The position numbers and the translations under genes were made by a program. This document shows, piece after piece, positions 12,944 through 53,681 of a stretch of DNA of 53,715 bases; the first letter of the stretch is position 1; every line of letters starts with the position of its first letter. The notes under the pieces were generated by a model. It had not been told where the DNA came from. It made no database searches and saw nothing but the letters and a program-made list of their open reading frames with translations. Location: NCBI GenBank assembly GCA_009920495.1, contig RFZW01000002.1, positions 1 through 53,715 of the forward strand, in the 5' to 3' direction. The DNA is from Chitinophagia bacterium (lineage in GTDB: Bacteria > Bacteroidota > Bacteroidia > Chitinophagales > Chitinophagaceae).

Positions 12944-13690
12944 TTAAATAAATTGTTGAACAATATAATAAAGAATGGAAGGGCATAATAAACAACCCAT
13001 ACCAGTGCTAAATGTTGCTGTTAATGCCCCATAAGGAACCAACTTCATATCGGTCGCAGCCAGGCCTGCCGAAACCCCACTCGTCGTTGACAACATTCCG
13101 CCATAAATCATTGCTGTATGTGGATTATTTAATTGGATTTTATTAGCTATAATTGGTGTTGCAATGGTAACAAAAACCGATTTTATTACCCCAATGGCAA
13201 TACTTATTGCAATCACTTCCGAGCTGGCTCCAACAGCCGCCCCAGTGACTGGCCCTACAATAAAAGTACAGGCTCCAGCCCCAATAGTCGTTAATGATTT
13301 GGCATCCGTGAATCCCATAAAATAGGCAATAACACCCCCTACAAAAAAAGCAATAACAATCCCTAATACAATGCTAATGACACCAGCTAATCCTGCTTTT
13401 TTAATTTCAGAAAAACTAGCACCCATCGCAGTGGATACAATCGAAAAGTCGCGTAACATAGCGCCCCCTAATAATGCCATTCCAGAAAACGCAGGTATAG
13501 CTGCAATTCCTTTTTCACCTTTTCCAAAATAAGCAATAAATAAACCAAAACTGATGGCAATGGCTGCAGCAGGAATTTTATTATTTGTTACTTTTTTACC
13601 AACTAAAAAAGATAAGTACATAATTACCCCAACTACAAGAAAGGCGAATATCAGTCCATTTTTATCTAAAATATTTATGATGTTTTGCAT
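12944..13690 (-). CDS. madM: Malonate transporter subunit MadM
   Basis: Large membrane subunit of the two-component malonate:Na+ symporter first described in Malonomonas rubra. 248 aa, almost entirely hydrophobic with seven or more helices; characteristic glycine-rich stretches 'GAGACTFIVGPVTGAAVGAS' and 'YGGMLSTTSGVSAGLAATD'. The gene begins 2 bp after the madL stop, as in known madLM pairs. Together with matB about 2 kb upstream on the same strand this indicates import and activation of malonate. Family assignment comes from recognising both subunits side by side. Confidence 0.88.
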   Translation of the reverse strand: MQNIINILDKNGLIFAFLVVGVIMYLSFLVGKKVTNNKIPAAAIAISFGLFIAYFGKGEKGIAAIPAFSGMALLGGAMLRDFSIVSTAMGASFSEIKKAGLAGVISIVLGIVIAFFVGGVIAYFMGFTDAKSLTTIGAGACTFIVGPVTGAAVGASSEVIAISIAIGVIKSVFVTIATPIIANKIQLNNPHTAMIYGGMLSTTSGVSAGLAATDMKLVPYGALTATFSTGMGCLLCPSILYYIVQQFI

Positions 13691-13692
13691 AC

Positions 13693-14055
13693 TTATTTTT
13701 TTATTCGGTTTATTTTAGCAATTAAAGGAATAAGTAAAAAACAAACCGACGTCGCAATAATTGCTACAATTAAAGCAACCCAACCTCCTATCAAAGCAGC
13801 CTTTACATTTTGGGTAGCCGACATCGCAACAATTACAGGAATATACATGCTACTCCAAAACAATATACCTTGCTCTGTTTCAGGTACCAATAATTTTTTT
13901 TTATTTAAATAATCATTCAACAAAATCAATAATATCATTGCGAATCCAACACCGCCTAAATTTCCGCTCATATCAAATAAACGTCCAAACCAATCACCAA
14001 TAAATTGGCCCACTAAATAACATGCTGCTAAAATGGCGACTCCATATATTTTCAT
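13693..14055 (-). CDS. madL: Malonate transporter subunit MadL
   Basis: Small membrane subunit of the MadLM malonate carrier, 120 aa with four hydrophobic segments. The opening 'MKIYGVAILAACYLVGQFIG', the 'NLGGVGFAMILLIL' segment and 'FWSSMYIPVIVAMSATQNV' closely follow the MadL pattern. It lies 12 bp after the broken esterase gene and directly before madM, so the three are almost certainly cotranscribed. Confidence 0.9.
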   Translation of the reverse strand: MKIYGVAILAACYLVGQFIGDWFGRLFDMSGNLGGVGFAMILLILLNDYLNKKKLLVPETEQGILFWSSMYIPVIVAMSATQNVKAALIGGWVALIVAIIATSVCFLLIPLIAKINRIKK

Positions 14056-14067
14056 GCTTGATGTGTT

Positions 14068-15009
14068 TTATTTTTTATTAATTATTTGCTTTACTTCTGA
14101 TTTAATCGCGCTCCCCCATACCTTATACCCTTGCTCATTATAATGCAGCTTATCGTCCTTATATAAACTTGTTATAGGGAACCCATCTGCCCCTAAAAAA
14201 TGCTCCTGAAAACCAATCGTATATAAATTAGCTTGTGTATTGCAATAGGCTTCAATCAATGTATTCGCCTGTTGTACTTTATCCCAAACCTTCCATCGTT
14301 TTTCACTGGGTGAAATTTTAAGCCAAGTAATTGGAATCAGCGGTTGTTGAACACGAATTTCTTGCACTATAAATTTAAATAACTCGAAGACTTGTTCAGG
14401 ATCCTTATCACTATTGCCATCAACGATATCATTCCCTACATAAAAAAAGATGCCTTTGGGATGATGTGACGCTAAAATCCGATCAATATAATAAGCTACA
14501 TCTCTTAAATTACAGCCCCCAAAACCACGATGAATGATATCATTGTATGAAATATCATTACGAATATTTTGCCACATTCGAATATAGGAACTACCAAAAA
14601 ACAAAAGTGCAGTATCAGAATGCTTCTCTGATTTATTTAAAATATCAAATCTTGCAAAAGTGGTATCATATTTCCAAGGTCCAGTAATTGAATTATCTAT
14701 ATTGTCCACCTTTCGTTTTAATTGTGTAAAAAGCCAATGTTCCATAGAATTTAATAATGTATCCTGTCGCAATTTACTATCTCCCCCATTTCCTTGACCA
14801 GGAACATTAGTTAGTGTATGGCCTGCATTATAAAATGGACGCCATGCTGTTGGTATCCCTAATCGCAGACAATGCTGATAAAGGATAGCTGGTCCATATT
14901 TGAAACTATGGTAATCATAGGAACTGTCATAAGGTACAGTTAAATCAGCAAGCCCTGCAGCATTATATAAGGGCGCATCCCCTTTTTTTATCCATGTGTA
15001 ATCAATCAT
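14068..15009 (-). CDS. Secreted two-domain esterase, 3' fragment: end of alpha/beta-hydrolase plus SGNH (GDSL-type) hydrolase
   Basis: Residues 1-100 are the rear half of an alpha/beta-hydrolase (WIKKGDAPLYNAAGLADLTV, a catalytic His region 'YNAGHTL'); residues about 120-313 are an SGNH hydrolase with block I 'FFGSSYIRMW', block II Gly in 'HRGFGGCNLRD', block III 'YVGNDI' and the Asp/His block 'DDKLHYNEQGY'. The start ATG overlaps the preceding stop (ATGA), but it is not a natural start: reading this frame upstream gives GNEGYASKVQGVFNLWGS, which continues the hydrolase. It is therefore the 3' part of the gene ending at 15006, displaced by a frame-shifting deletion near 15055-15072. The SGNH part could still act if translated. 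Confidence 0.82.
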   Translation of the reverse strand: MIDYTWIKKGDAPLYNAAGLADLTVPYDSSYDYHSFKYGPAILYQHCLRLGIPTAWRPFYNAGHTLTNVPGQGNGGDSKLRQDTLLNSMEHWLFTQLKRKVDNIDNSITGPWKYDTTFARFDILNKSEKHSDTALLFFGSSYIRMWQNIRNDISYNDIIHRGFGGCNLRDVAYYIDRILASHHPKGIFFYVGNDIVDGNSDKDPEQVFELFKFIVQEIRVQQPLIPITWLKISPSEKRWKVWDKVQQANTLIEAYCNTQANLYTIGFQEHFLGADGFPITSLYKDDKLHYNEQGYKVWGSAIKSEVKQIINKK

Positions 15010-15578
15010 GGATCCCCATAAATTAAATACCCCTTGTACTTTTGAAGCATATCCTTCATTCCCGAACTTCCTGCTAAAAATATTTGGGTTTCATCTATCC
15101 CATATTGTGATGCATTTTTCCTAAAAAATCGAACAGCCGCGCGTGCATCTTGTTGTGCTCTATACATGGCTTCATGATAATCTTTATTTGTATTGGTTGC
15201 AGCTATCCCCAAACGATAATCAATAGAAGCAACCACAAAACCCTTTTTCCCTAGCCTAATACCCAACTTATTACTTATTGAACTTGATTTATTATTATTT
15301 CTAAAACCACCCCCATGAATAAAAATAACCAAGGGCCTTTTTTTAACAGTATCAACTTGGGGTGGCATAAATAAATTTAATAGCAATTTCTCATTCTCCC
15401 CTTTTAAATTGATGGATTCTCCATAGGGGATATCAATCAAGGAATCAATATTCGTAAACAGCTCATTTTTATAACGCTTTCCCAAGTTGGTTCCTTCTGT
15501 ATTTTGCTTTTGTGCAAATACTTGAAAATGCGCTATAAGAAATAATATAAAACAAAATGACTGCACAAATTTTTTCAT
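15006..15578 (-). CDS. Secreted two-domain esterase, 5' fragment: front half of alpha/beta-hydrolase
   Basis: Signal peptide MKKFVQSFCFILFLIAHFQVFAQ (start at 15578; the track start adds eight residues and crowds the matB stop). Then the carboxylesterase-like front half: oxyanion motif 'FIHGGGFRNN', 'VVASIDYRLG', 'AQQDARAAVRFFRKNA' and the start of the nucleophile elbow 'FLAGSSG'. After this elbow the frame leaves the family and stops 17 codons later. About 25-30 residues expected between 'GSSAG' and 'GNEGYASKV' are missing, and the loss is not a multiple of three. Alone this fragment lacks the catalytic Asp and His. Confidence 0.82.
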   Translation of the reverse strand: MKKFVQSFCFILFLIAHFQVFAQKQNTEGTNLGKRYKNELFTNIDSLIDIPYGESINLKGENEKLLLNLFMPPQVDTVKKRPLVIFIHGGGFRNNNKSSSISNKLGIRLGKKGFVVASIDYRLGIAATNTNKDYHEAMYRAQQDARAAVRFFRKNASQYGIDETQIFLAGSSGMKDMLQKYKGYLIYGDP

Positions 15579-15594
15579 AGTGATTATTGAATTT

Positions 15595-17094
15595 TTAAAC
15601 AAACATTTTTTTTATATCATTCTTAACTACCTTACCCATTGCATTTCGTGGTAAATCTTTCATGACCAAATATCTTCTCGGTTTTTTATAAGAAGCGATA
15701 TAATTTACAATCCAATCTGACAATGATTTCTCATTAAAATCATTTATGAAGGGCTTTTTTAAAACAATAGCTGCTGCAATTAACTCTCCCCACTCATCAT
15801 CATCAATACCAACCACTGCACAATCTTGAATCATTTCATTGGTTCTTAAAATCTCTTCTATTTCTAATGCAGATATTTTATAACCGCCCGACTTTATGAT
15901 GTCTACCGATTGTCGCCCCATGATTCTATAATATCCATTTTCAATCACCGCAATATCTCCAGTTTTAAACCAGCCATCATTTGTAAAAGTGGCTTGTGTC
16001 GCCTCCGGTCGTTGCCAATATTCTTTAAAAACATTATCTCCTTTTACTAATATCTCCCCTGGCATTTGATCTCCCACTTGAACAAAGTGTTCGTCTGCTA
16101 GTTTTATTTGAACGCCGGGCAAGGGAATGCCAACATATCCCGCTTTCCGATCTCCATGATAGGGATTACTAATTGCCATCCCAAGTTCAGTCATCCCATA
16201 TCTTTCTAATAATTGATGGCCGCTAATTTGCGCCCACTTATCCATCACACTTACCGGAAGGGCCGCTGACCCACATACCATTAGCCTAAACTTTTTCATG
16301 CATTCACGGAGTGTATTTTGATTCTCCATCGCTAAGGTTTCAAAATACGCAATCAGCTTATAGTAAATAGTAGGCACTGCCATGAATACATTTAACTTGT
16401 TTTGTCCAATTAAATTAAATATTTGTTCAGGCGAAAAGCCAGCAGTGAAATTACAGCTAGCGCCTGCCCAAAGTGAACAACCAACCACATTTATAATTCC
16501 ATGCACATGATGCAAAGGCAATACACAGATAATTCGATCATGGGGCGACCATTCCCAAGCTTTAATTAATGTATTAATTTGGGCTTCAATATTTTTATGC
16601 GTTGTAACCACCCCTTTGGGTTTATTGGTGGTACCACTCGTATATAAAATCAACGCATTTCTTTGCTTTTCTATTGGAGGTAATAATTCAGGGAATGCTA
16701 ATTGCTGATCATTTATTTCTTCAATAACAATGACGCTTATATTTGAATTTTGTAAATAAGGCCCTAATACTTCTTTGAATTCTTTGGAAATAACTAAAAT
16801 AGTTGATTGCGTATCGTCCAACACATATTCCAAAGATGGAAGTGGATGTGTAATACATAATGGAACTGCAACGCCTCCTGCGATCCAAATCGCCCACAAT
16901 GTTTTTACATAATCAAAACCTGGATGCACCATAAAAGCAACCCTAGCTTGATTCAAATCGGAGGTATTATTTAAGAGTATGCCTGAAAATTTCTCCGCAC
17001 TTGCTATTAGTTGCTCATACTTATAAATGACGCCATCATGAATGATGGCGTCATTATTTAAATGCTTTTTTGCTTGTTCAAAAAATTGAAGCAT
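15595..17094 (-). CDS. matB: Malonyl-CoA synthetase (MatB-type acyl-CoA ligase)
   Basis: ATP-dependent ligase of the ANL family that activates malonate to malonyl-CoA in the cytosol. The P-loop motif 'ILYTSGTTNKPKGVV', the aromatic motif 'LLERYGMTELGMAISNPY', and the MatB-typical hinge 'GRQSVDIIKSGGYKISALEI' are all present, as is the C-terminal catalytic Lys region 'PRNAMGKVVKNDIKK'. 499 aa is the usual length. It follows the ExuT-like gene by 13 bp and precedes the esterase and madLM on the same strand. The context with MadLM strengthens malonate over other short acids. No malonyl-CoA decarboxylase is in the window. Confidence 0.87.
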   Translation of the reverse strand: MLQFFEQAKKHLNNDAIIHDGVIYKYEQLIASAEKFSGILLNNTSDLNQARVAFMVHPGFDYVKTLWAIWIAGGVAVPLCITHPLPSLEYVLDDTQSTILVISKEFKEVLGPYLQNSNISVIVIEEINDQQLAFPELLPPIEKQRNALILYTSGTTNKPKGVVTTHKNIEAQINTLIKAWEWSPHDRIICVLPLHHVHGIINVVGCSLWAGASCNFTAGFSPEQIFNLIGQNKLNVFMAVPTIYYKLIAYFETLAMENQNTLRECMKKFRLMVCGSAALPVSVMDKWAQISGHQLLERYGMTELGMAISNPYHGDRKAGYVGIPLPGVQIKLADEHFVQVGDQMPGEILVKGDNVFKEYWQRPEATQATFTNDGWFKTGDIAVIENGYYRIMGRQSVDIIKSGGYKISALEIEEILRTNEMIQDCAVVGIDDDEWGELIAAAIVLKKPFINDFNEKSLSDWIVNYIASYKKPRRYLVMKDLPRNAMGKVVKNDIKKMFV

Positions 17095-17107: not shown

Positions 17108-18688
17108 TTACAAGTTGATAATTTTTTCCTTTGGAACCAATGACTTCATGATGCTCCAAGCAATTAAATACGCCACTGCACAAAAAGCAAACATCATTGA
17201 ATAAGCAGTGGTTAGGGAACCACGTACTGCTTCCTTTTGAATATGAATAAACAATTCATATTGGGTTGGATCCACCGCTTGTAATTTTGCTTGTATATCT
17301 TTGGTTAAATTTGACCAATCTTTTTGTGCCACATTAATCAATACCCCTTTTTTATCGGTTACATTAAGTGATACCACTTTATTTAAATAATCAGCATACC
17401 CTGTATTTGTAGCACTTGACCAAGTCGCATTCACCGCTTTCAATTTGTAGCTATCGAATAACCATCCGCCTACTTTTGAAACCACAACACCCCCTAATCC
17501 GCCAGCCATTCCGCCAATACCCACTACGGTTGCAATGGATCTTTTTGGAAACATATCAGACACAGTAGTGTAAATATTTGCAGACCATGCCTGATGAGCA
17601 GATGCACCAATACCAATAAAAATTACGGGCACCCAATAACTCAAATAACCCAAAGGTTGCACTGCTAAAACCACCAAAGGAATAAATGCAATCATCAACA
17701 TGGCTTTCATACGACCATCATACGGCTTCATTCCTTTATTAATGAAATAAGTGGGGAAATAACCACCACCAATACTACCCACCATCGTCATACTATATAA
17801 CACCGTTAATGGAATGATAATAGCAGTACCCTCCATACTATATTGGTCCTTTAAATAGCCCGGTAACCAAAATAAGAAAAACCACCAAACACCATCCGTC
17901 ATAAACTTACCAATAGCAAAAGCCCAGGTTTGCTTATAACCCATCAAGGTAGCCCATGAAATACGATTAGTCACTTTACCATCCACGACTGTATCCTCCA
18001 CTTCAGTATGATCCGTTATGTATTCTAATTCGGCAGCAGATAACCTTTTTTGCTCAGTGGGTTTTTCATAATAAATAAACCAAAAAATTAACCACAAGAA
18101 CCCAATAGCGCCAATGATAAAGAATGCTTCTTCCCAACCCCAAGTGGTTACAATCCATGGCACAGAAAGCGGCGCTAATATCGCACCCACATTGGTACCT
18201 GAATTAAATATACCTGTAGCAAAAGATCTTTCTTTTTTGGGGAAATATTCCGCTGTTGCTTTAATAGCCGCCGGAAAATTGCCCGCTTCTCCAAAACCCA
18301 ACAAAGCCCTTGATAACATAAAACCTGCTATAGAAATTGGCACAGCAGTAATTCCTACCCAACCTAATACAGTGGCTACCATCATACCCGCTGGCACCGC
18401 ATAAGCATGTAAAATTGCAGCTAATGACCATATAATGATTGCCCAAGCATATCCTGCTTTTGTGCCTAATTTATCAACGATGCGTCCTGCAAATAATAAA
18501 GATATTGCATAACTAAATTGAAATACGGATGCGATATTAGCGTAATCACTATTACTCCAATCAAATTCACGCTCCAAAGTGGGTTTTAATAAACTCAACA
18601 CTTGACGATCAAGATAATTTACGGTAGTTGCAAAAAACAACAACGCACAAATGGTCCAGCGATATTTCCCAATAGCAGTTTGTTTCAT
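17108..18688 (-). CDS. exuT: Hexuronate transporter, MFS (ExuT-like)
   Basis: Major facilitator of the anion:cation symporter family, probably importing glucuronate and/or galacturonate across the inner membrane. Motifs: 'TVNYLDRQVLSLLKPTLERE' at TM1, 'GEAGNFPAAIKATAEYFPKK' (the ACS family signature) and a late insert between the last helices. The insert (about residues 415-485) explains the 526 aa length against about 430 for E. coli ExuT; Bacteroidota members often have it. It abuts the KDPG aldolase gene with no gap and lies within the uronate operon, which supports the substrate. Confidence 0.87.
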   Translation of the reverse strand: MKQTAIGKYRWTICALLFFATTVNYLDRQVLSLLKPTLEREFDWSNSDYANIASVFQFSYAISLLFAGRIVDKLGTKAGYAWAIIIWSLAAILHAYAVPAGMMVATVLGWVGITAVPISIAGFMLSRALLGFGEAGNFPAAIKATAEYFPKKERSFATGIFNSGTNVGAILAPLSVPWIVTTWGWEEAFFIIGAIGFLWLIFWFIYYEKPTEQKRLSAAELEYITDHTEVEDTVVDGKVTNRISWATLMGYKQTWAFAIGKFMTDGVWWFFLFWLPGYLKDQYSMEGTAIIIPLTVLYSMTMVGSIGGGYFPTYFINKGMKPYDGRMKAMLMIAFIPLVVLAVQPLGYLSYWVPVIFIGIGASAHQAWSANIYTTVSDMFPKRSIATVVGIGGMAGGLGGVVVSKVGGWLFDSYKLKAVNATWSSATNTGYADYLNKVVSLNVTDKKGVLINVAQKDWSNLTKDIQAKLQAVDPTQYELFIHIQKEAVRGSLTTAYSMMFAFCAVAYLIAWSIMKSLVPKEKIINL

Positions 18689-19354
18689 TTACTTTGTTTT
18701 AATTGTTTGGATAAGTTCCAACACTTTTATTGTTTCTGTTTCAATAGTCGCATATTCCTTTGCTTCCATTAATTTTTTACTAATCAATTTACTACCCATA
18801 CCCACTGCACAAACCCCTGCTTTAAACCAACCTTCAATATTTTCCCTAGTGGTATCCACGCCACCTGTAGGCATAAATAAAAGTTTAGGAAATATATCTT
18901 TGATGCCACTTAAAAATTCAGGGCCTAATAAATTACCTGGGAATAATTTAATAAATTTTACGCCATTGTTTTCAGCTGCAATAATTTCAGTAGGCGTCAT
19001 ACAACCTGGCGCATATAACAATCCTTTTGCGTGCGTATAATCAGCTACCTCGGCGACATAACCAGGACTCACTAAAAAATCAGCGCCTGCATTGATATAA
19101 TCTGTCGCTTGTGCTACATTTTTGATGGTACCCACCCCAATTAATAACTCAGGCATTTCTGCATTTCTAATGGCCACCATTGCTTTGAAGTTTTTTAAAG
19201 CCGCTTCGCCACGATTGGTATACTCTACTGCTTTCACACCAGCTTTATAAATTGAACGCAAAATTTCAATACTCACAGACTCATCTGCATTAAAATATAA
19301 AGGCAACATTCCTTGGTGAATAATTGCGTCGATTGCTTGTTGATTTTTACTCAT
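18689..19354 (-). CDS. eda: 2-keto-3-deoxy-6-phosphogluconate aldolase (KDPG aldolase)
   Basis: Class I aldolase that splits KDPG into pyruvate and glyceraldehyde-3-phosphate, the end of the uronate route. 221 aa TIM barrel; Schiff-base Lys in 'GVKFIKLFPGNLLG', phosphate-binding 'MPTGGVD', and 'GADFLVSPGY'. The stop is directly followed by the ATG of the transporter, so the two are tightly coupled. Confidence 0.93.
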   Translation of the reverse strand: MSKNQQAIDAIIHQGMLPLYFNADESVSIEILRSIYKAGVKAVEYTNRGEAALKNFKAMVAIRNAEMPELLIGVGTIKNVAQATDYINAGADFLVSPGYVAEVADYTHAKGLLYAPGCMTPTEIIAAENNGVKFIKLFPGNLLGPEFLSGIKDIFPKLLFMPTGGVDTTRENIEGWFKAGVCAVGMGSKLISKKLMEAKEYATIETETIKVLELIQTIKTK

Positions 19355-19412: not shown

Positions 19413-19862
19413 CTATATACGCACTTTTATCACCATTTTTGTAATCTCTCCTTGCCCAATCATTGGGGCATGAACATCTTCCGGAAAGAAAATAACAAAC
19501 TGATGATCGGTTAAACTAAAAAAGGTATCTGGTTGATCCAAATACAATTGCACATCTTTTTCAGCGTTATACTCACCATTAGGTAATACACACTTACTTC
19601 TTGGCTTCCATCCCATTTGCTCGTCCCCTTTGATACAAAGTTGAATATCAATATTTTTATTATGGCATTCAAATTTAGCAACACTTGCTTCGGCTGTTTT
19701 ACCAACAGCGGTGTTGTTAATCACTTTTAATCCATCTGAAATATCAAACTTACCTATTTCAATGGCAGTTAAATTTTGCGCAGCAATATATTCAAAAGCT
19801 GACTGAAATAAAGGATGTACACTGTAATATTTGTGTGCATTCTGTAGGGTATCTATAATCAT
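19413..19862 (-). CDS. YhcH/YjgK/YiaL family protein (DUF386)
   Basis: 149 aa cupin-fold protein of the YhcH family, often found in sialic acid and uronate gene clusters; proposed sugar anomerase or isomerase role, not proven here. Seen: 'MIIDTLQNAHKYYSVHPLFQ', 'ECHNKNIDIQLCIKGDEQMG' and 'VIFFPEDVHAPMIG', the last containing the conserved metal-binding His. It sits between kdgK and the aldolase gene. Confidence 0.85.
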   Translation of the reverse strand: MIIDTLQNAHKYYSVHPLFQSAFEYIAAQNLTAIEIGKFDISDGLKVINNTAVGKTAEASVAKFECHNKNIDIQLCIKGDEQMGWKPRSKCVLPNGEYNAEKDVQLYLDQPDTFFSLTDHQFVIFFPEDVHAPMIGQGEITKMVIKVRI

Positions 19863-19942: not shown

Positions 19943-20968
19943 TTATCTTTGAACGCGGCCGCTGCCATCGCCTTTCATTAAATCCTTAACATCACTCAAG
20001 GTTGCGTGGTTCAAGTCGCCTGGTATGGTATGCTTTAAAGCACTAGCTGCAACACCAAACTCTGCAGCATCTGCCATGGACATGCCAGTGACTAATCCAT
20101 AAATTAAACCACTTGCAAAACTATCCCCACTACCTACTCTGTCCACAATGCGAACATTGTATTGTTTGGTATGGTAAAAATCAGTTCCATTATAAACTAA
20201 AGCGCTCCAACCATTATCACTTGCGCTATGACTTTCACGTAATGAAGATGCAATAAATTTAAATCCGAACTTGGCTTGCATTTGCTTAAATACATCCTTA
20301 AATCCATCCAAGTTCAACTCTCCTTTAGTGACATCTGTATCAGCAGCTTTAAAACCTAAAGTGGTATCTGCATCTTCTTCGTTTCCGATACAAACATCTA
20401 CATACTTGCATAATTCTGACATTACTTCTCTTGCCTTTTCCTTCGTCCACAATTTTTTACGATAATTTAAATCAATACTTGTGGTAATTCCTTTTGCTTT
20501 TGCCGCTTTCAATGCCGCCAAAGTTAATGCAGCTGCTTTATCACTTAAAGCAGGTGTGATGCCTGTCGTATGAAACCAATCAGCCCCATCTAAAATTTTA
20601 TCAAAATCAAATTCAGACGCATCCACATCAGCTATAGAAGCTCCTGCTCGATCATATACCACCTGCGAAGCACGCATGGATGCACCTGTTTCTAAAAAAT
20701 AAATCCCTAATCTATCACCACCACGCGCAATAAATTGGGTATCTACGCCATATCTTCTTAAATGATTAATTGCCGACTGTCCAATTGGATTGTTAGGGAC
20801 TTTAGTCACAAATGTTCCATTTAATCCATAATTACATAAAGCAGCAGCCACATTCGCTTCGCCACCACCATAAGTGATATCAAAGGTATCTGCTTGTACA
20901 AATCTTTTAAAGTCAGGTGTTGACAAACGCAACATAATTTCCCCGAGTGTAACTACTTTCTTGCTCAT
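19943..20968 (-). CDS. kdgK: 2-keto-3-deoxygluconate kinase
   Basis: PfkB-family kinase that phosphorylates KDG to KDPG. 341 aa; 'FDITYGGGEANVAAALCNYG' at the N-terminus, and the C-terminal catalytic signature 'DRVGSGDSFASGLIYG' with the base Asp. It is the convergence point of the two uronate branches: KDG from UxuA and KDG from KduD both need this enzyme. It lies 18 bp downstream of uxaC. Confidence 0.93.
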   Translation of the reverse strand: MSKKVVTLGEIMLRLSTPDFKRFVQADTFDITYGGGEANVAAALCNYGLNGTFVTKVPNNPIGQSAINHLRRYGVDTQFIARGGDRLGIYFLETGASMRASQVVYDRAGASIADVDASEFDFDKILDGADWFHTTGITPALSDKAAALTLAALKAAKAKGITTSIDLNYRKKLWTKEKAREVMSELCKYVDVCIGNEEDADTTLGFKAADTDVTKGELNLDGFKDVFKQMQAKFGFKFIASSLRESHSASDNGWSALVYNGTDFYHTKQYNVRIVDRVGSGDSFASGLIYGLVTGMSMADAAEFGVAASALKHTIPGDLNHATLSDVKDLMKGDGSGRVQR

Positions 20969-20986: not shown

Positions 20987-22408
20987 TTAATTAATTTTAA
21001 AATAATCCTTTGCATTATAATAACAGATATTCTTTAAAATATCCGCGATCCATTTTTCATCAGTAGGAATCAGTCCTTTTTCCATATCTTTTGCAAATAA
21101 GTTACAAATGATACGTCTAAAATACTCGTGCCTTGAATAAGATAAAAAACTTCGACTATCAGTAAGCATACCAATAAATGAAGAAATTAACCCCATGTTA
21201 GATAAAGTATTTATTTGTTTTTCCATACCATCCTTTTGGTCCAAGAACCACCATCCTGACCCAAACTGCATTTTACCTTTCAATTTGCCATCATTAAAGT
21301 TTCCACACATGGTCGCAAAAACTTCATTATCTGCAGGATTAATATTGTATAAAATAGTTTTTGCTAATTCATCCCTCTGATCCAAAGCATTTAAAAAATG
21401 AGACAAACTCACCGCTTGTGAATAATCACCAATAGAATCAGTGCCTGAATCAGCGCCAATACGTGCTAATAATTTCGAATTATTATTTCGAATAGGCCCC
21501 AAGTGGAACTGTTGTACCCAACCTTTTTTACAATACATTCTAGATAATGACAAAAGTATAGCACCTGCGAATCGCTCCGGCTGGGAGAAAGGATTGCTAT
21601 TTTTATTTTGAATGAATTGTACAAACTCTTTCTCCAAAGCAGTCGTAAAAGTAATTTGTGACGGCATTTGCGTAAATGCATGATCAGAAACACGACAACC
21701 ATTTTGATGAAAATAATTTACTCTGCTCTCTAATGCAATTAAGAAAGTATTGATGCATTTAACTTTTGTTCCTGAAACTTTCTCCAACTTTTGCAGATAT
21801 TTTATAAATGCTCCCTTATCCGCAATATTCAACGCCTTATCCGGCCTGAAAGTGGGTAATACTTTACACTTAAATCCACTTTTTGCTATTTTTTTATGAT
21901 CCGCCAAATCATCACATGGATCATCGGTGGTTCCTACTAATTCCACCTTATAGTTATTTAAAATTCCTTGTGTTGAAAATTTATCTTGGGCCAAAAGTGT
22001 ATTGCATTTTTTATAAATCGCACCCGCAGTTTTTTCATCTAAATATTCATTGATCCCAAAGGGTCTTTTTAATTCTAAATGTGACCAATGAAATAATGGA
22101 TTACGAATGGTTTGTGGCATACATGCAGCCCAGGCTTTAAATTTTTCTTCATCACTTGCATTGCCCGTAATTAATTTTTCATCTATACCTAATGCGCGCA
22201 TCGCTCTCCATTTATAGTGATCCCCTTTTAACCAAATCTCGGTTAAATTTTTGAACTTTTTATTTTCTGCTATTTCATTTGGAGGCAGATGATTGTGATA
22301 ATCAATAATAGGCAAATTGGCTACATGATTATGATACAACTTATTGGCCATTTTACTTTCAAGTAAAAATTGGTCTGTAAAAATGGTTTTCTTTTTCGAA
22401 ATCGACAT
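20987..22408 (-). CDS. uxaC: Glucuronate isomerase (uronate isomerase)
   Basis: Converts D-glucuronate to D-fructuronate and D-galacturonate to D-tagaturonate; member of the amidohydrolase superfamily. 473 aa, usual length. 'PIIDYHNHLPPNEIAENKKF' carries the metal-binding HxH; further conserved 'LGPIRNNN', 'RIGADSGTDSIGD' and 'LTDSRSFLSYSRHEYFRR'. It starts 16 bp after uxuA and is intact. Confidence 0.96.
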   Translation of the reverse strand: MSISKKKTIFTDQFLLESKMANKLYHNHVANLPIIDYHNHLPPNEIAENKKFKNLTEIWLKGDHYKWRAMRALGIDEKLITGNASDEEKFKAWAACMPQTIRNPLFHWSHLELKRPFGINEYLDEKTAGAIYKKCNTLLAQDKFSTQGILNNYKVELVGTTDDPCDDLADHKKIAKSGFKCKVLPTFRPDKALNIADKGAFIKYLQKLEKVSGTKVKCINTFLIALESRVNYFHQNGCRVSDHAFTQMPSQITFTTALEKEFVQFIQNKNSNPFSQPERFAGAILLSLSRMYCKKGWVQQFHLGPIRNNNSKLLARIGADSGTDSIGDYSQAVSLSHFLNALDQRDELAKTILYNINPADNEVFATMCGNFNDGKLKGKMQFGSGWWFLDQKDGMEKQINTLSNMGLISSFIGMLTDSRSFLSYSRHEYFRRIICNLFAKDMEKGLIPTDEKWIADILKNICYYNAKDYFKIN

Positions 22409-22424
22409 GCGTCTATTATTTATA

Positions 22425-23639
22425 TTATTTAATTTCTTCTAAGCTTCTTAATATGCCTAATTCAACACCTCTTAATTCCGCTAATCCTTTTAATCTTCCA
22501 ATAGCAGAATAACCAGGATAGGTTTTCTTTTTTAAATCATCTAACATCTGATGTCCATGATCAGGTCGCATTGGGATATCTACCCCACGCTGCTGCATCA
22601 CAAGAACAATTTCTTTAATCACTCCATACATATCCACATCTCCTTCTAAATGATTGTCCTCATAAAAATCACCTAGCGCATTGCGTCTCGTGCTTCGCAA
22701 GTGAATAAAATTAATTCTGTCCCCGAACTGCTTTACCATTTCAGGTAAATTGTTATCAGGCCTTACGCCAAAAGAACCTGTACAAAAACACAAACCATTA
22801 CTCAAAGATGGCACTGCTGTTGCTAATGCTTGTATATCAGATGCTGTACTTACAATTCTTGGCAATCCTAAAATAGCATGTGGCGGATCATCTGGATGAA
22901 TCACCATTTTAATACCTGCCGCTTCTGCAACTGGAACTACTTGTTGTAAAAAAAAGATCAAGTGACTTCTTAATTTTTCAGCATCTATTCCTGCATAAGC
23001 GTCCAACGCTGCTTGAAATTGTTCCATTGTAAAACTTTCCTCACTTCCCGGCAAACCTTTGATCATGTTTTTTTGTATCAATTCCAGTTCAGCCGCACTT
23101 GCATTTTCAAATTTATGTTTTGCTATGGCTATTTCTTCAATGGTGTAATCCTTTTCAGCACCCTTTCTTTTTAAAATAAATAAATCAAAAGCCATGACCG
23201 CCGCTTTTTCATATAACAAAGCCAAGGAACCATCCGGCATGGGGTATTCTAAATTAGTTCTTGTCCAATCCATGACAGGCATAAAATTGTAAGTCACAAT
23301 TTTGATCCCACATTGTCCAAGATTTTTTAAACTGACTTTATAGTTTTCGATAATTTGCAAATAGCCATCGACTTGTGTTTTAATGGACTCGTGCACAGGC
23401 AAACTTTCAACCACTGACCATTTCAATCCAGCTGCAGCCACCAAATCAATTCTTTTTTGAATTTCCTCCACTGTCCAAACATCCCCATTCGGAATATGAT
23501 GCAATGCGGTAACAACGCCAGTACAGCCAGCTTGTCTTATATCTGATAAAGAAACTGGATCGTTAGGTCCATACCAGCGCATGGTTTGTTCCATTCTATT
23601 TTTCACATTCCCATAAGAAGGATAAAAATGATTTCCCAT
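22425..23639 (-). CDS. uxuA: Mannonate dehydratase
   Basis: Dehydrates D-mannonate to 2-keto-3-deoxygluconate; Fe/Mn-dependent TIM-barrel enzyme. 404 aa; '[20 protein letters not shown]' at the start, metal-binding 'MVIHPDDPP', '[15 protein letters not shown]', 'FIHLRSTRR' and '[10 protein letters not shown]'. All expected metal ligands are present. It lies about 110 bp after the SDR gene on the same strand. Confidence 0.96.
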
Positions 23640-23752: not shown

Positions 23753-24574
23753 TTATACCCCACTATTAATGGTGAATCCTCCATCCACACCAATATCCAT
23801 ACCAGTCACAAATTTTGAAGCGTCACTTAACAACCAAATCAATGCCCCAATTAATTCATCAGGCTGACCAAATCGCTTGTAGGGCGTGTTACGAATAATT
23901 GCATTCCCTCTGTCCGTATACGAACCATCATCATTGGTTAACAAAGTTTTATTTTGACTTGTAAGAAAAAAACCAGGCATGATGGAATTGATTCTTATTT
24001 TATCACCATAACGATTGGCCATTTCAATTGCAAACCACTTGGTATATATATCAATGGCCGCCTTACCCATACTATATCCTAAAACCTTTGTTATAGCTCG
24101 TTTGGAACTCACCGATGAAATATTAACGATACTCCCATTGCCAGTTTTTGCAATTTCAGGCCCAAATACTTGAACAGGAATAATGGTACCCCATAAATTA
24201 AGGACTAAAGCATCTTTCATTCCATCAATATTCAAATTGAAAACATCTTCCGTTGGTTGCAAAACACCCGATGGTATATTTCCTCCAGCGCCATTCACCA
24301 ACCCATCTATTTTACCATACTTCCCTAAAATTTCATTTTTTGCTGAAACCAATTGTGCTTCTTCTAATACATTCACCGAAATAAAATGAGCATCCCCTCC
24401 ATTCGCTTTCACTTCTGCAACTCTTTCATTTCCCTTCTCCACGTTCTGACCCAAAATAATTGGAATCCCCCCCTGTGTTGCAATACCTTTTACAAAACCT
24501 GCACCTAATACACCAGTACCTCCAGTAACCACAATTACTCTCCCTTGCAAACTAAACATATCCGATTGTGCCAT
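23753..24574 (-). CDS. uxuB: SDR-family D-mannonate oxidoreductase (fructuronate reductase, YjmF/UxuB-like)
   Basis: Short-chain dehydrogenase, 273 aa: cofactor motif 'VVTGGTGVLGAGFVKG', 'NGAGGN', catalytic Ser in 'NISSVSS' and 'YSMGKAAID', C-terminal 'GMDIGVDGGFTI'. Its size and its place directly before uxuA and uxaC point to the Bacillus YjmF-type fructuronate reductase, which makes D-mannonate from D-fructuronate. The classical E. coli UxuB is a different, longer family and is absent here. First gene of the long minus-strand run and divergent from lacI. Confidence 0.85.
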   Translation of the reverse strand: MAQSDMFSLQGRVIVVTGGTGVLGAGFVKGIATQGGIPIILGQNVEKGNERVAEVKANGGDAHFISVNVLEEAQLVSAKNEILGKYGKIDGLVNGAGGNIPSGVLQPTEDVFNLNIDGMKDALVLNLWGTIIPVQVFGPEIAKTGNGSIVNISSVSSKRAITKVLGYSMGKAAIDIYTKWFAIEMANRYGDKIRINSIMPGFFLTSQNKTLLTNDDGSYTDRGNAIIRNTPYKRFGQPDELIGALIWLLSDASKFVTGMDIGVDGGFTINSGV

Positions 24575-24923: not shown

Positions 24924-25943
24924 ATGGCAGCAGTAAATTTAAAGCAATTAGCAAAAATATTGAACCTTTCCATTTCAACGGTATCAAAGGCTTTACGGGA
25001 TAGCCATGAAATTGGAGATGCCACTAAAGAGCGCGTTTTGGCTAAAGCAAAGGAAATGGACTACACCCCCAATCCGTTTGCAAGCGGATTAAGAAGAAAT
25101 AAAAGCAAAACTATCGCCGTTGTGGTACCTGAAGTGGCCAATAACTATTTTTCATTGGCCATTAATGGCATTGAGCGTATCGCACAGGAAAATGACTACC
25201 ATGTGCTCATCTACTTAACCCATGAAGATATTGAAAAGGAAAAAGGGATCATGAAGCATTTGGAAAATAAAAGAGTAGATGGGGTTTTGATGTCAGTAAC
25301 AATGAATACCAGTAATCAAACCCATTTATCAGATTTTCAACAAAAAGGAATACCCATTGTATTTTTTGATCGAATTTGTAATGAAATTGAAACCGCAAAA
25401 ATTACCACTGATGATTATATCAGCGGCATCAATGCAACCAAACATTTAATTGAAAATAACTGTAAGGATATTGCCTTTTTATCATTAGGTGATGAAATTT
25501 CAATTATGCAAAAAAGGAAAAGTGGCTATTTAGAGGAATTGCATAAAAACAATATGGAAGCCAAACCGGAACGAATTGTAAAATGTGGTAATGATGATGA
25601 AATGAACTACCAACTTGTGAAAGAACTTCTAACTGGTAAAAATAAACCAGATGGCATTTTTGCATCTGTGGAAAAATTAGCCATCACTACCTATCAAGTT
25701 TGTAGAGAACTAAATATTAATATACCGGAAGAAGTGAAAATAATTTGTTTTTCTAATCTTGAAACCGCTTCCCTATTAAGCCCTTCGCTTTCCACCATCA
25801 CCCAACCAGCCTATAATATTGGCAAAACTGCCGCAGAAGTGATGTTCAAATACCTAGACAAAAATAAGACCTATATTCCGAATGAGAATATTGTTTTACA
25901 ATCTACTTTACACATCAGAGAATCCTCTCAACAAATTGTTTAA
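24924..25943 (+). CDS. LacI-family transcriptional regulator
   Basis: 339 aa. N-terminal helix-turn-helix and hinge helix: 'NLKQLAKILNLSISTVSKAL' then 'MDYTPNPFASGLRRNKSKTI'; the rest is a periplasmic-binding-protein-like sensor with 'VDGVLMSV', 'GIPIVFFDRI' and 'PDGIFASVEKLA'. It is divergent from the hexuronate operon, so it probably senses a uronate or KDG-like intermediate and controls that operon and possibly the SusCD block. The effector is inferred only from position. Confidence 0.92.
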   Translation: MAAVNLKQLAKILNLSISTVSKALRDSHEIGDATKERVLAKAKEMDYTPNPFASGLRRNKSKTIAVVVPEVANNYFSLAINGIERIAQENDYHVLIYLTHEDIEKEKGIMKHLENKRVDGVLMSVTMNTSNQTHLSDFQQKGIPIVFFDRICNEIETAKITTDDYISGINATKHLIENNCKDIAFLSLGDEISIMQKRKSGYLEELHKNNMEAKPERIVKCGNDDEMNYQLVKELLTGKNKPDGIFASVEKLAITTYQVCRELNINIPEEVKIICFSNLETASLLSPSLSTITQPAYNIGKTAAEVMFKYLDKNKTYIPNENIVLQSTLHIRESSQQIV

Positions 25944-29419: not shown

Positions 29420-32059
29420 TTATAAAGTAATGTTTAACCCAAAGTTGACATTATATGGCGTTGGCGCACCTCCGCTTGTTCCATTCTTATTTTCTGGATC
29501 AAAGTATATCCAATTGCTAAACACATGGGCGTTTACAATGTTTACGTAAAACTTAACATTGTCAAACTTCCATTTTTTTGCTAATTGACTTGGAACATTA
29601 TAAGCTAAACTTGCATTACTTAATCTTACGAATGAAGAAGCTCTATATACACCCCATGATACTGGACCACCCACATTTGAACCAATCCCAGCATAATCAT
29701 TGATTGGATTACTAGGTGTCCAATATGGTATTTTGTAAAAGTTAGAACGATCATAAAAAACGTTTCCTCCATTTAATTGCGAATTGGTTGCTTCACTAAA
29801 TGAACTTAACTGCCCAATTTTCGCATATAATGTAAATGACAAATCAAAGTTTTTATAAATTCTAAAATCATTTCTCAAGTTCCAAGAATACTTTGGTGTT
29901 GTTTCTCCTAAAAATTGTTTGTCAGCGATGGTATAAGCGCCATCATTATTTAAATCCACCAAACGCATATCCCCTGGTTTATACCCATAAGTTTTTGCTA
30001 AAGCTGCATCAGCAACCTGCCATACTCCTTGAATACCATAATTATAAATTGATGAAATTGAATGTCCAATAAACCATTGATTGGTCAAATCATCTTTTTC
30101 TGAACTTCCAATTTGCTTTCCAGTTGCAGGATCATAATCAGGAGTTGCACCATACAAATGGTTTATTTTGTTTCTATTTAACCAAAAACTAATCGTGCTT
30201 TTCCAAGTTAAATTTTTTCGTTCTAAGTTGACAGTGTTCATACTCATCTCAAAGCCCTTATTTTCCACTTCACCTAAGTTTACTAAAATACTGCTAAACC
30301 CTGTTACAGTAGGCAAAGAACGATTCACTAATAAATCCTTTGTAGTACGAACATAATAATCAATCGAACCACTTACTTTACCATTGAAAATTGAATAATC
30401 AATCCCTGAGTTTATCGCACTATTTCTTTCCCATTTCAAACTTGGATTGGACAAATTACTAGCAGCAACTGTTGAACCATTGTAAGCAGTACCCCCAGAG
30501 GTTACAAAAACAAAGGTACCTGACGTTAAGTTGGATAATGCTGCATAGCGGCCAATTTCTCGGTTACCATTTTCACCATAGGAAACTCTCAACTTTGCAT
30601 AATCCAACCACTTTTGAGTTCCTTTCATGAATTTTTCCTCATTCAATGCCCAGCTTAATGCAACAGATGGGAATGTAGCTCTTGGGTTTTGTTGTCCAAA
30701 TGCAGAATAACCATCACGGCGTGCAGTGGCTGTTAAGAAATATTTTTGATCATAGTTGTAATTGATACGACCCATTAAGGCATCCCCAGTTGCCATCTGA
30801 TCATCACTTGCAATTGTCGCAGGCAATGTTCCAGATTGAACTGCATGGAAACTTAAATTATCATTAGGTGCAAAATTCTCCGCATGCATTGTTGAGTTCC
30901 ATGATTGAAACTTTTCCGCATTGAATAAAAATGTCGCTTCAATGGTATGCTTGTCCAACTTCTGATTCCATCTCAAAATATTATCTAACTGCCAAGAATA
31001 AGTAGTTTGATTTCTTCTGTCTACCACACCTTTTTTAGCAGCAATGGTTGGGTTTAATGCAGACTGATGATTGAACTGCATTAAAAAATCATAACGAGGT
31101 GAAAAATTCACTTGGTAAGAAAAACCAAACGGCAATTTACCTTTTGCATATAATGATCCAAAAAAGTTGTTGTACTGATACATACGATCTGTATAAGTTT
31201 GATCCATAAATGGATGTGTATTATTTCCCGGATCATCATTTGGGCTTGTTCTTAAGGTTACCCCATCAGCTGCGTAATAGGAACCCCACGGCGTGGTTCT
31301 TGTAACATCACTTAAGTTTACGGGTATTGAACTTTCATCGCGATTTGAAAATTGAAAATTCATACCAACAGTTAAAAATTTAGCAGCAGTTGCTTCTAAG
31401 TTTAAACGTGTACGGAAAGTTTTGTAAGTATCCCCTACTGTTAAACCTTCATTGGTTAAATAACCTAAGGATAAATAATAATTATAATCATCTCTTCTTT
31501 GTGCTATACTAACTGTATGATCATGTTGTAAAGCATTGTCATTATAGATTAATTTTTCCCAATTTAACATTTGACCAGCTTGGTAGTTGGTAATTTCAAT
31601 GGGTTTTAAACGCAGCCTATTTAACCATTCAGTTGTAACATCACCAGTTGCACCCGTCAAAGCCATCCAGTCTGCTTGTGATATACTACCTGAAGGTAAT
31701 TTAGTGGGGTTTTGATATCTATATTTAATTCCTGGTTTTGATGTTGAATCATAACCCATCATACTCCAAATCGCATCAGCTCTAAAATCTAGCATCTCAT
31801 TGCCATCCAATAAATGTGGTTTATTGGCCAATTTATTGAACCCTATATTGTCATTAAATGTGATGATTGGCTTTCCTGACTTTCCTTTTTTAGTACTTAT
31901 CAATATTACCCCATTCGCAGAACGTGCTCCAAATACTGCAGCTGAACTCGCATCTTTTAAGATATCTATTGTTGCGATATCATTCGGATTAATATCCTCT
32001 AAGCCACCAGGATAAATAACTCCATCCAATACGATTAGAGGGCTTGAGCTAGCAGTCAT
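29420..32059 (-). CDS. susC: SusC/RagA-family TonB-dependent receptor, 3' fragment (plug end and beta barrel)
   Basis: 879 aa covering the second half of the plug (SSPLIVLDGVIYPGGLEDIN, 'ILKDASSAAVFGARSANGVI') and the whole 22-strand barrel to the C-terminal 'PYNVNFGLNITL'. The ATG at 32059 is not a natural start; it lies at a junction where about 25 residues of the plug (the 'AAG...GGG...IRG' stretch) are missing and the frame changes relative to the 5' fragment. Without the signal peptide and TonB box of that fragment it could not reach the outer membrane. Partner of the adjacent susD. Confidence 0.88.
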   Translation of the reverse strand: MTASSSPLIVLDGVIYPGGLEDINPNDIATIDILKDASSAAVFGARSANGVILISTKKGKSGKPIITFNDNIGFNKLANKPHLLDGNEMLDFRADAIWSMMGYDSTSKPGIKYRYQNPTKLPSGSISQADWMALTGATGDVTTEWLNRLRLKPIEITNYQAGQMLNWEKLIYNDNALQHDHTVSIAQRRDDYNYYLSLGYLTNEGLTVGDTYKTFRTRLNLEATAAKFLTVGMNFQFSNRDESSIPVNLSDVTRTTPWGSYYAADGVTLRTSPNDDPGNNTHPFMDQTYTDRMYQYNNFFGSLYAKGKLPFGFSYQVNFSPRYDFLMQFNHQSALNPTIAAKKGVVDRRNQTTYSWQLDNILRWNQKLDKHTIEATFLFNAEKFQSWNSTMHAENFAPNDNLSFHAVQSGTLPATIASDDQMATGDALMGRINYNYDQKYFLTATARRDGYSAFGQQNPRATFPSVALSWALNEEKFMKGTQKWLDYAKLRVSYGENGNREIGRYAALSNLTSGTFVFVTSGGTAYNGSTVAASNLSNPSLKWERNSAINSGIDYSIFNGKVSGSIDYYVRTTKDLLVNRSLPTVTGFSSILVNLGEVENKGFEMSMNTVNLERKNLTWKSTISFWLNRNKINHLYGATPDYDPATGKQIGSSEKDDLTNQWFIGHSISSIYNYGIQGVWQVADAALAKTYGYKPGDMRLVDLNNDGAYTIADKQFLGETTPKYSWNLRNDFRIYKNFDLSFTLYAKIGQLSSFSEATNSQLNGGNVFYDRSNFYKIPYWTPSNPINDYAGIGSNVGGPVSWGVYRASSFVRLSNASLAYNVPSQLAKKWKFDNVKFYVNIVNAHVFSNWIYFDPENKNGTSGGAPTPYNVNFGLNITL

Positions 32060-32555
32060 TCCCTCTTAACATATCGCCGACGGAACGTGGATTTTCATTT
32101 TCAAGTTGTGTCGCTTTAATTTGAGATACAGCACCTGTTAAATCTTTTTTACTTTGTGTACCATAACCCACCACCACCACATCCGAAAGTGATGATACTT
32201 GTTCTGTTAAAACTACATTTATCAATTTGTTGTTTTTTACAGCTACTTCTTTAGTTAAAAACCCAACAGCTGAAAATACTAATGTAGCATTATCTGGTAC
32301 ACTAATTGTAAATACACCTTTGGCATCTGTTATCACCGATGTTTTAGTTCCTTTCACAGTTATGGTAATACCGTCTAATGGCGTATTTCGACTGTCAGAT
32401 ACTTTACCCGTTACAGTAATTTGTGCTAATGCTATTTTCATTGCTGAAACACGCGCAGTAACAGGAGTTGAAGTAGTCACCAAGATGCTCAATAAACTTA
32501 GCATCAGTAAGCTACTCGACATTAGTTTTTTGCAATTTTTTTTGGTTTGTTTCAT
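32049..32555 (-). CDS. susC: SusC/RagA-family TonB-dependent receptor, 5' fragment (signal, CarboxypepD-like domain, TonB box, plug start)
   Basis: 168 aa: signal peptide, then a carboxypeptidase-regulatory-like domain starting 'ITVTGKVSDSRNTPLDGITI', then the SusC TonB-box region 'LSDVVVVGYGTQSKKDLTGA' and the plug start 'ENPRSVGDMLRGN'. After RGN the frame reads DC and stops, where families continue 'AAG...'. The next ORF takes up the plug in another frame. Both fragments together would make a normal receptor of about 1,070 aa. The deletion point is about 32055-32063. Confidence 0.88.
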   Translation of the reverse strand: MKQTKKNCKKLMSSSLLMLSLLSILVTTSTPVTARVSAMKIALAQITVTGKVSDSRNTPLDGITITVKGTKTSVITDAKGVFTISVPDNATLVFSAVGFLTKEVAVKNNKLINVVLTEQVSSLSDVVVVGYGTQSKKDLTGAVSQIKATQLENENPRSVGDMLRGNDC

Positions 32556-38784: not shown

Positions 38785-39978
38785 TTAAAAAAGTTGAAGT
38801 AATAAATTATTGTAATTGTCGCCTGCAAAATTTTGTATCGAAACCTTACAACTGGCACAATCATATTTTTCAGAAGCATGTAAAAGTAAGTTAAACGCTT
38901 CTTCCACATAATAAGGCGTTATTTCAGGACCCGTCCAGGTTTTTTCTTTTTTAATGTATGGCAATAATGCCAGGTATGATTTTTTTAAAGAATGTTGATG
39001 CACTGTTTCTTTTTCCCAAAAATTCACACCCACTTTTTCCGCAAGCTGCGCGATTGAACTAAATGCAACTAAATTAAAAACCGAATAATGTAATGAATTC
39101 GTTCTGGCTAATTCTAATGGAAATAAATGATCACTATTTGACTGGTCGTCCAAGCGCTGTAAGCTTCGGTCAATAATTTTTTTAGCCAATTCATTGCTAT
39201 CTAAATATAAGGCAATACCCAAACATTGAAAATCATACCATACCCCATGATTATTTTTAGTCATCATTTCTTCCTTCCCATTTTCAGTGGTCTGCAACCA
39301 ATCTAAAAATTGTGCAAACCATGCTTTCGTGGCTTTATCTGTTTTATTATTCCAATTGGAAGAACCTTTTAATAGTTGCACCCCATTAAGCATATAAACA
39401 AAATGCCTGGTATCAATAATACCTGTACCCCTACCACTATTGATTCCCTTCACTAACTGTGCAAAATTTAAATTTGGATTCATCTTGGTTGCAGAATCCA
39501 AAAACCAAACAGTCACCAATTCATTTACTTTTTTTGCATATTGCTCATTACCACTTAAATAATAGGCAATCCCCAATAAATATATGTTACCACATAGTCT
39601 GGGCATGTTTTCTTTATCCGGATAATTTTTTACTTCCGGATTAATTTGACCGTCCTTTTTAATATAAGGCAACCCATTGGGAGTTTTCGGGTTTGGCCAC
39701 CAATAGGGCGCCAAGCTAACATAATCATGTTTATTTCCACTCGGCGGCATGTCTACCTTATCCATCACTGACACCGGTTTGTATGCTAAAATTTTATTCG
39801 CAGAAGTAATTAACTTCTTGTAAGCATCCATCACTGATTTGTCGCCACTTTGCACTTTTGCTTTTGTTACTGCTAATTGTTTAAAATCAAATTGTATGGT
39901 TTCACCACTGCCCACATTTTGCCCACTTACCATTGTAATAAAAAAAAGGCACACACTGAATAATAAGAATTTGTTCAT
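38785..39978 (-). CDS. Alginate-lyase-family polysaccharide lyase (PL38-like)
   Basis: Secreted (signal MNKFLLFSVCLFFITMVSGQ) alpha/alpha-toroid lyase of the Alginate_lyase Pfam family. 397 aa; 'YVSLAPYWWPNP', 'NPNLNFAQLVKGINSGRGTG', and the catalytic-type 'KNNHGVWYDF' with Asn/His at residues 242-244. The PL38 family, known for glucuronan/alginate lyases in gut Bacteroidota, is the closest by pattern; substrate here could be glucuronan, alginate or another polyuronate. It is the only clear endo- or exo-lyase in the window. 20 bp upstream of kduD. Confidence 0.82.
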   Translation of the reverse strand: MNKFLLFSVCLFFITMVSGQNVGSGETIQFDFKQLAVTKAKVQSGDKSVMDAYKKLITSANKILAYKPVSVMDKVDMPPSGNKHDYVSLAPYWWPNPKTPNGLPYIKKDGQINPEVKNYPDKENMPRLCGNIYLLGIAYYLSGNEQYAKKVNELVTVWFLDSATKMNPNLNFAQLVKGINSGRGTGIIDTRHFVYMLNGVQLLKGSSNWNNKTDKATKAWFAQFLDWLQTTENGKEEMMTKNNHGVWYDFQCLGIALYLDSNELAKKIIDRSLQRLDDQSNSDHLFPLELARTNSLHYSVFNLVAFSSIAQLAEKVGVNFWEKETVHQHSLKKSYLALLPYIKKEKTWTGPEITPYYVEEAFNLLLHASEKYDCASCKVSIQNFAGDNYNNLLLQLF

Positions 39979-52913: not shown

Positions 52914-52969
52914 TGCAGAAAAAGCATCACTTCTTTCATGTTTTGCAGAACCTAATTCAGCAATCGCAT

Positions 52970-53602: not shown

Positions 53603-53656
53603 GTTAATTTTTTTTAAATCTTTTCTTGTAAGAAACGATCGTATATAAACAACTAA

Positions 53657-53681
53657 TCCCAACCGTGTTTGACAGTTGGGA
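53657..53681 (-). promoter_or_regulatory. Hairpin in the pnp leader
   Basis: TCCCAAC / GTTGGGA (53657-53663 with 53675-53681), with an inner TGT/ACA pairing. It lies about 55-80 bp upstream of the pnp start. It could be the terminator of an upstream gene or a leader hairpin; there is no T-run for a minus-strand terminator, and the gene that would precede pnp is outside the window. Confidence 0.4.

Follow-up and report, generated by a model that had tools for sequence, protein, structure and literature searches.

Malonate uptake genes and a putative malonyl esterase within a hexuronate operon of freshwater Bacteroidota

Why should genes for malonate uptake and activation be attached to an operon for hexuronate degradation, and where would the malonate come from? 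The question is raised by a stretch of 53,715 nucleotides from a Chitinophagia bacterium (GenBank assembly GCA_009920495.1, contig RFZW01000002.1; hereafter the window), contig C2 of a genome that is 78% complete and split into 348 contigs totalling 2.29 Mb. Here a minus-strand run leads from uxuB (24574) through uxuA, uxaC, kdgK, a DUF386 gene, the KDPG aldolase gene, exuT, matB, an esterase gene and madL to madM (12944). An earlier interpretation made from these letters alone (the sequence-only reading) had joined MadL, MadM and MatB to the hexuronate genes and suggested a route from malonylated plant or algal glycans to fatty-acid synthesis, but it overlooked the esterase gene between matB and madL. 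With this gene included, we consider it probable that the locus combines a module for scavenging malonyl esters with the glucuronate operon that houses it, so bringing together cleavage, import, activation and uronate catabolism.

The assignment of MadL, MadM and MatB as a set for import and activation was borne out at the level of gene identity, since both subunits of the MadLM transporter (MSS family) score above the NCBIfam equivalog cut-offs (TIGR00808, 236.3 bits; TIGR00807, 113.45 bits; scores in Table 1) and the top five PDB matches of the ligase are exclusively malonyl-CoA synthetases (4gxq, 4gxr, 4fuq, 3nyq and 4fut; E ~1e-72), with the next protein family following at E 7e-55. The RYGMTE..M..SNPY region is preserved in the ligase, and the LERYGMTE and PLHHVHG motifs are preserved in all aligned Bacteroidota MatB relatives. 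Because the curated cut-off for malonyl-CoA synthase is not reached, we call the enzyme MatB-type, filing it by its closest solved relatives only. The position of these genes in one run with ExuT, KDPG aldolase, KdgK, UxaC, UxuA and UxuB was likewise upheld; gaps in the run range from -4 to 113 bp, and those between successive genes, from uxuB to madM, are 113, 16, 18, 80, 58, 0, 13, 16, 12 and 2 bp. UxaC and UxuA exceed their equivalog cut-offs and lie in one operon with the kinase, the aldolase and the transporter, which identifies the isomerase pathway of hexuronate catabolism. By context, the uxuB-like dehydrogenase would be the fructuronate reductase, and the exuT-like gene reaches 209.8 bits against the D-galactonate transporter model TIGR00893, under its cut-off of 395. 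The operon is likely under the control of a divergently encoded LacI-family regulator, which is found in the matching place in several related loci (L022, L030, L032, L117, L118, L153 and L165; loci and genomes are cited by our L and G handles). The close relatives of the window are metagenome genomes of freshwater Bacteroidota (Chitinophagaceae), such as Baikal-deep-G72 (L118) and F1-60-MAGs052 (L117), in which the genes flanking the locus are mostly 92-100% identical to those of the window.

In the window, the esterase appears as two open reading frames (ORFs), which are fragments of a single gene; its relatives encode one protein of 469-544 amino acids, whose N-terminal part is an alpha/beta-hydrolase domain and whose C-terminal part is an SGNH domain. 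The likely start is the ATG at 15578. Alignment at the DNA level to L034, L032 and L119 reveals that the window lacks 100 bp around the alpha/beta nucleophile, between GSS and GN, so that the frame is broken. As the SusC gene (29420-32555) and the housekeeping PNPase gene (51588-53662) of the window are also frame-broken, with sequence apparently missing, the break is likely an assembly artefact, and a natural frameshift in the organism was judged less likely. Intact relatives present GSSAG and GH in the alpha/beta domain. SGNH blocks I, II, III and V are all kept in the window ORF (GSSYIR, HRGFGG, YVGND and DKLHY), and GSSYIR, GFGG, YVGND and DKLH are invariant among relatives, with PF13472 above its cut-off. 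In an AlphaFold2 model of a relative's esterase (predicted local distance difference test, pLDDT, 85.7), the alpha/beta domain matched carbohydrate and carboxyl esterases (5ao9, 6xyc, 6mly), and the SGNH domain matched sialate O-acetylesterase and PAF acetylhydrolases (6njc, 7pzg, 1bwp). From an N-terminus that by eye resembles a Sec leader, we infer that the enzyme is secreted.

The esterase is tightly linked to the malonate genes. A query with the esterase only, run against 84,980 species genomes, yielded 41 relatives that have both domains or are pieces of such proteins, all in Bacteroidota and mostly in lake or pond genomes; in a plasmid collection, the same search gave partial, distant matches only. 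Within the Chitinophagaceae clade, matB lies directly upstream of the esterase gene in 21 of the 24 loci having upstream sequence, and the order matB-esterase-madL-madM recurs among freshwater Chitinophagaceae. The gap between matB and the esterase gene is -4 bp in 11/35 relatives' loci and at most 11 bp in 28/35 (a few genomes being counted twice). Among 201 related genomes, 14 encode both the esterase and MadM, 4 MadM only, 10 the esterase only and 173 neither (Fisher p = 4e-12, phylogeny ignored). In L022, L025, L028 and L030, a gene for a 3-keto-disaccharide hydrolase (PF06439) lies downstream of madM, with GFO/IDH/MocA oxidoreductases nearby.

The linkage persists when other parts of the module are exchanged. 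In L111, L112, L113, L135 and L160-L162, matB and the esterase gene are followed by an MFS carrier, with no madLM. A double replacement is seen in L156-L158 (G061, G103 and G117), where the order is esterase-MFS-matB2 and the module is inserted beside housekeeping genes; L159 (G099) has the same arrangement, cut at the contig end. The matB2 product, at 32-39% to the window MatB and with the motif ILERYGMTETLMNISNPY, belongs to a different MatB lineage, whose best solved relative is R. palustris MatB (341 bits). Thus, the combination of esterase, malonate ligase and carrier survives the replacement of the latter two. In addition, the near-identical sister genomes L153 and L154 have neither matB nor madLM, and their esterase carries an in-frame deletion of the SGNH catalytic core, while both alpha/beta domain and uronate operon are retained. 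This joint loss suggests that it is the SGNH domain that serves the malonate branch. The esterase of L163, also counted among the sister genomes, is likewise without its SGNH half, by an in-frame deletion.

We therefore propose a route of several steps. A glycan or glycoside containing glucuronate would first lose its malonyl groups to the secreted esterase, most likely to its SGNH domain, and the alpha/beta-hydrolase domain would probably remove a second acyl group. The released malonate would be imported by MadLM, a predicted Na+ symporter, and the ligase is predicted to convert malonate, ATP and CoA to malonyl-CoA. The de-esterified uronate would enter via ExuT, to be degraded by UxaC, UxuB, UxuA, KdgK and KDPG aldolase.

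How general is the link to uronate catabolism? Neighbours of the esterase loci include uxuA, uxaC, uxuB, exuT, kdgK or KDPG aldolase genes, and among MatB loci with enough flanking sequence, uronate neighbours occur at 18/20 with the esterase versus 3/27 without it. These three (L087, L089 and L095), from one genus of another family and with a MatB on a separate branch, have the order uxuB-uxuA-kdgK-exuT-matB-(madL)-madM. Since the remaining 24 esterase-less loci, and with them most other Bacteroidota, carry matB-madLM with no uronate genes, matB-madLM reads as an independent module that some lineages have attached to their uronate operons. The union with hexuronate genes emphasized by the sequence-only reading is conserved in the esterase-bearing lineage and recurs in that one other genus; its malonylated-glycan route gains from a putatively secreted esterase that stays with the malonate ligase, and loses from the missing uronate link at most Bacteroidota loci, a finding that goes part of the way to the refutation which that reading had itself laid down.

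The esterase is tied to uronates also in Runella sp. (L131:9920-12595), in which the esterase is naturally fused to a domain of the alginate-lyase family. This domain shares its Pfam family with a polyuronate lyase encoded elsewhere in the window (Table 1), a possible upstream depolymerase. Both presumably belong to CAZy family PL38. Characterised glucuronan and alginate lyases are found in PL38 (PMC9227215). The Runella fusion adjoins sulfatase-type, FGE-type and GH88-type genes. In L107 and L110, upstream of matB-esterase-madLM, a gene for a GH2 enzyme with a malectin domain lies between uxuB and uxuA, and in L107 a sialate-acetylesterase-like SASA esterase is encoded there as well.

What becomes of malonyl-CoA depends on the lineage. 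The MdcA/MadA-type alpha subunit (PF16957) was found in 0/45 MadM-bearing Bacteroidota genomes, with a positive control search, and full-length MatA (PF05292) was not found in the window's 78%-complete genome. The PF05292 domain of malonyl-CoA decarboxylase (MCD) is missing in 44/45 of the same MadM-bearing genomes, some of them 95-100% complete, and the sole match, in G014, is an unlinked protein of a minimal type (mini-MCD), not full-length MatA. Mini-MCDs form a single-domain family of 190-196 amino acids that adjoins the module in eight loci: the gene immediately follows madM in L107 (12694-13266), L108, L110 and L116, and the MFS carrier gene in L111 (12779-13369), L112, L113 and L135; the family is also listed at L151:3272-4000. 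They match the MCD catalytic domain only (PF05292, 77-84 bits; solved MCD 4ks9, E 7e-15), without the N-terminal helical oligomerisation domain, and the Ser-His catalytic dyad described for MCD (PMC3701320) is conserved in them. In the model (pLDDT 88.2), the 17 best Foldseek matches are all MCD, followed by the CurA GNAT decarboxylase. We predict from these profiles and folds that mini-MCD is a new single-domain malonyl-CoA decarboxylase, which to our knowledge would be the smallest form of this enzyme. A 36% relative is encoded on a 355-kb contig of a viral collection (L167, IMGVR_UViG_3300032236_000747).

The absence of a decarboxylase, which the sequence-only reading had noted, is thus true of the window, its genome and nearly all relatives, but is lineage-specific, since eight relatives carry mini-MCD beside the module. 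Because the searches of the window's genome and of nearly all relatives showed no Mdc and no classical MatA, malonyl-CoA in the window lineage probably goes to fatty-acid synthesis, most likely directly, which would spare the biotin-dependent acetyl-CoA carboxylase step. In engineered E. coli, malonyl-CoA is supplied by MadLM with MatB and by MatBC, and a strain whose own supply of malonyl-CoA is blocked can be rescued by MatBC together with malonate (PMC12303837). The fatty-acid fate suggested earlier remains plausible for the window; in the sister lineages that encode mini-MCD, a second route would lead to acetyl-CoA. An alternative that concerns this fate only, and leaves the rest of the proposed route intact, is that the window lineage, too, turns malonyl-CoA into acetyl-CoA by decarboxylation and uses malonate simply as a carbon source; the enzyme could be from a different family, or a mini-MCD could lie in the 22% of the genome that the assembly lacks. 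The eight loci and the unlinked copy in G014 speak for it, as does the incompleteness of the genome; mini-MCD is nevertheless missing in 65/66 genomes searched, including the window's, and neither mini-MCD nor MCD was found in module-bearing G039 (96%), G047 (100%), G045 (99%), G090 (95%) and others. We regard this alternative as a serious though not the favoured possibility.

A number of observations weigh against malonyl-ester scavenging as a whole. In the window as assembled, the frame break disrupts the alpha/beta-hydrolase (BD-FAE type), whose GxSxG nucleophile, acid and His do not share an intact frame, and the joint loss in L153 and L154 is one event. On the MatB tree, where R. palustris MatB sat on an absurdly long branch and its placement was not used, the association between esterase and uronate genes amounts to three independent contrasts (sign test p = 0.25), so that phylogenetic proof of the uronate link is weak. 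No malonylated polyuronate was found in the literature searched, which likewise offered nothing relevant on malonylated exopolysaccharides or on MatB/MadLM in Bacteroidota. Malonate would not be the sole source of malonyl-CoA, given that AccA is present in 16/18 genomes; on the same ground, the idea that malonate is salvaged to make up for a lost acetyl-CoA carboxylase was rejected. As to biotin, bioB is missing in 17/17 MadM carriers of the genus and also in 10/12 non-carriers tested; the genus appears largely biotin-auxotrophic, and a biotin-free source of malonyl-CoA would be useful to it, but, with most non-carriers sharing the lack, auxotrophy was rejected as the specific driver. Finally, the esterase occurs with uronate genes and no ligase nearby in L115, L120, L132 and L155, and also at MatB-less loci in Cytophagales, so the ancestral esterase may have removed acetyl or other groups.

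This last point leads to a different explanation, namely that the enzyme is an ordinary acetyl esterase and that matB-madLM takes up free malonate from decaying plant or algal matter, being co-located for shared regulation. In those ligase-less relatives, the esterase sits in uronate or SusCD clusters; its alpha/beta domain resembles BD-FAE and acetyl-xylan-esterase-like enzymes, its SGNH domain resembles sialate O-acetylesterase, and matB-madLM stands alone in other Bacteroidota. Against this, the esterase stays with a malonate ligase through the exchanges of transporter and ligase, often with overlapping reading frames, matB, madLM and the SGNH core disappear jointly in the sister genomes, and acetyl specificity would be an assumption for both domains. 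We consider this explanation unlikely. A shift of the MatB and MadLM homologues to another small dicarboxylate half-ester, such as methylmalonate or another C3-C4 acid, is allowed by the ligase scores below the curated PRK07514 cut-off of 558 (360.7 bits for the window MatB, 473.5 bits for matB2) and by the acceptance of methylmalonate by MatB enzymes (PMC6273144), but is very improbable given that both MadL and MadM exceed equivalog cut-offs, that two separate MatB lineages have been recruited, and that malonyl-CoA is what the mini-MCD found beside the module at eight loci suggests.

Table 1. Coordinates and supporting matches of the features discussed in the window.
Feature	Coordinates	Strand	Evidence
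madM, malonate/Na+ symporter subunit, 248 aa	12944..13690	-	PF03818 5e-103; TIGR00808 327.9 bits
madL, malonate transporter subunit, 120 aa	13693..14055	-	PF03817 2.6e-45; TIGR00807 140.3 bits
Broken esterase, 3' ORF: rest of alpha/beta-hydrolase and SGNH domain	14068..15009	-	PF13472; alignment to intact relatives
Broken esterase, 5' ORF: putative Sec-type leader and N-terminal alpha/beta-hydrolase to GSS	15006..15602	-	PF20434 BD-FAE 1.3e-18
matB-type malonyl-CoA synthetase, 499 aa	15595..17094	-	PF00501; best PDB matches all MatB
exuT-like MFS hexuronate transporter	17108..18688	-	MFS_1 8.5e-52
KDPG/KHG aldolase	18689..19354	-	PF01081
YhcH/YjgK/YiaL family protein (DUF386)	19413..19862	-	PF04074
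kdgK-type 2-keto-3-deoxygluconate kinase (PfkB)	19943..20968	-	PF00294; NF041633 542.8 bits over kinase half
uxaC glucuronate isomerase	20987..22408	-	PRK02925 582.7 bits, cut-off 387
uxuA mannonate dehydratase	22425..23639	-	TIGR00695 548.4 bits, cut-off 199.55
uxuB-like short-chain dehydrogenase	23753..24574	-	PF13561; operon position
Divergent LacI-family regulator	24924..25943	+	PF00356/PF13377
Polyuronate lyase of 3nfv/8bdq type	38785..39978	-	PF05426; PDB 3nfv E 2.8e-74, 8bdq E 1.4e-68

Taken more broadly, the chances appear to us about even that malonylated uronate glycans or glycosides are used by freshwater Bacteroidota through a pathway not yet described, with a dedicated malonyl esterase, exchangeable importers and ligases, and malonate passing to fatty acids directly or through a single-domain MCD. 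Plant glycosides commonly carry malonyl groups, and no bacterial route for harvesting them is described in the literature searched. If the pathway exists, malonylated acidic glycans or glycosides would be a common but unrecorded substrate in lakes, to be expected in freshwater dissolved organic matter, and the esterase could be named as a family. It would also mean that in nature malonate can enter lipid synthesis bypassing acetyl-CoA carboxylase, as it has so far been made to do in engineered E. coli.

The system combines traits of several known ones. With matABC of Rhizobium (MCD, malonyl-CoA synthetase and dicarboxylate carrier) it shares malonate import and activation by MatB, with the carrier adjacent to the ligase; here, however, the carrier is MadLM or an MFS protein and not MatC, full-length MatA was not found, and the module has a built-in, probably secreted esterase and is joined to a hexuronate operon. 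The two-subunit Na+ symporter is of the same family as that of the mad/mdc systems of the Malonomonas and Pseudomonas type, but in place of their acetyl-S-ACP decarboxylase (MdcA/Mad) malonate would be activated with CoA. The hexuronate genes form the complete set of isomerase-type catabolism in Bacteroidota (ExuT, UxaC, UxuB, UxuA, KdgK and KDPG aldolase, with a divergent LacI), and differ from such operons in carrying matB, the esterase gene and madLM at the 3' end. Similarly, secreted multi-domain carbohydrate esterases near SusCD, polyuronate lyase or uronate genes are familiar from the glycan-use loci of Bacteroidota, whereas here the pairing of alpha/beta-hydrolase and SGNH domains is tied to malonate uptake and activation. 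Mini-MCD, in turn, shares with MCD (PDB 4f0x, 4ks9) the GNAT-like catalytic domain, the His and Ser dyad and the top fold matches, but within ~190 amino acids it dispenses with the N-terminal helical domain and, in the catalytic domain, with most of the helical insert.

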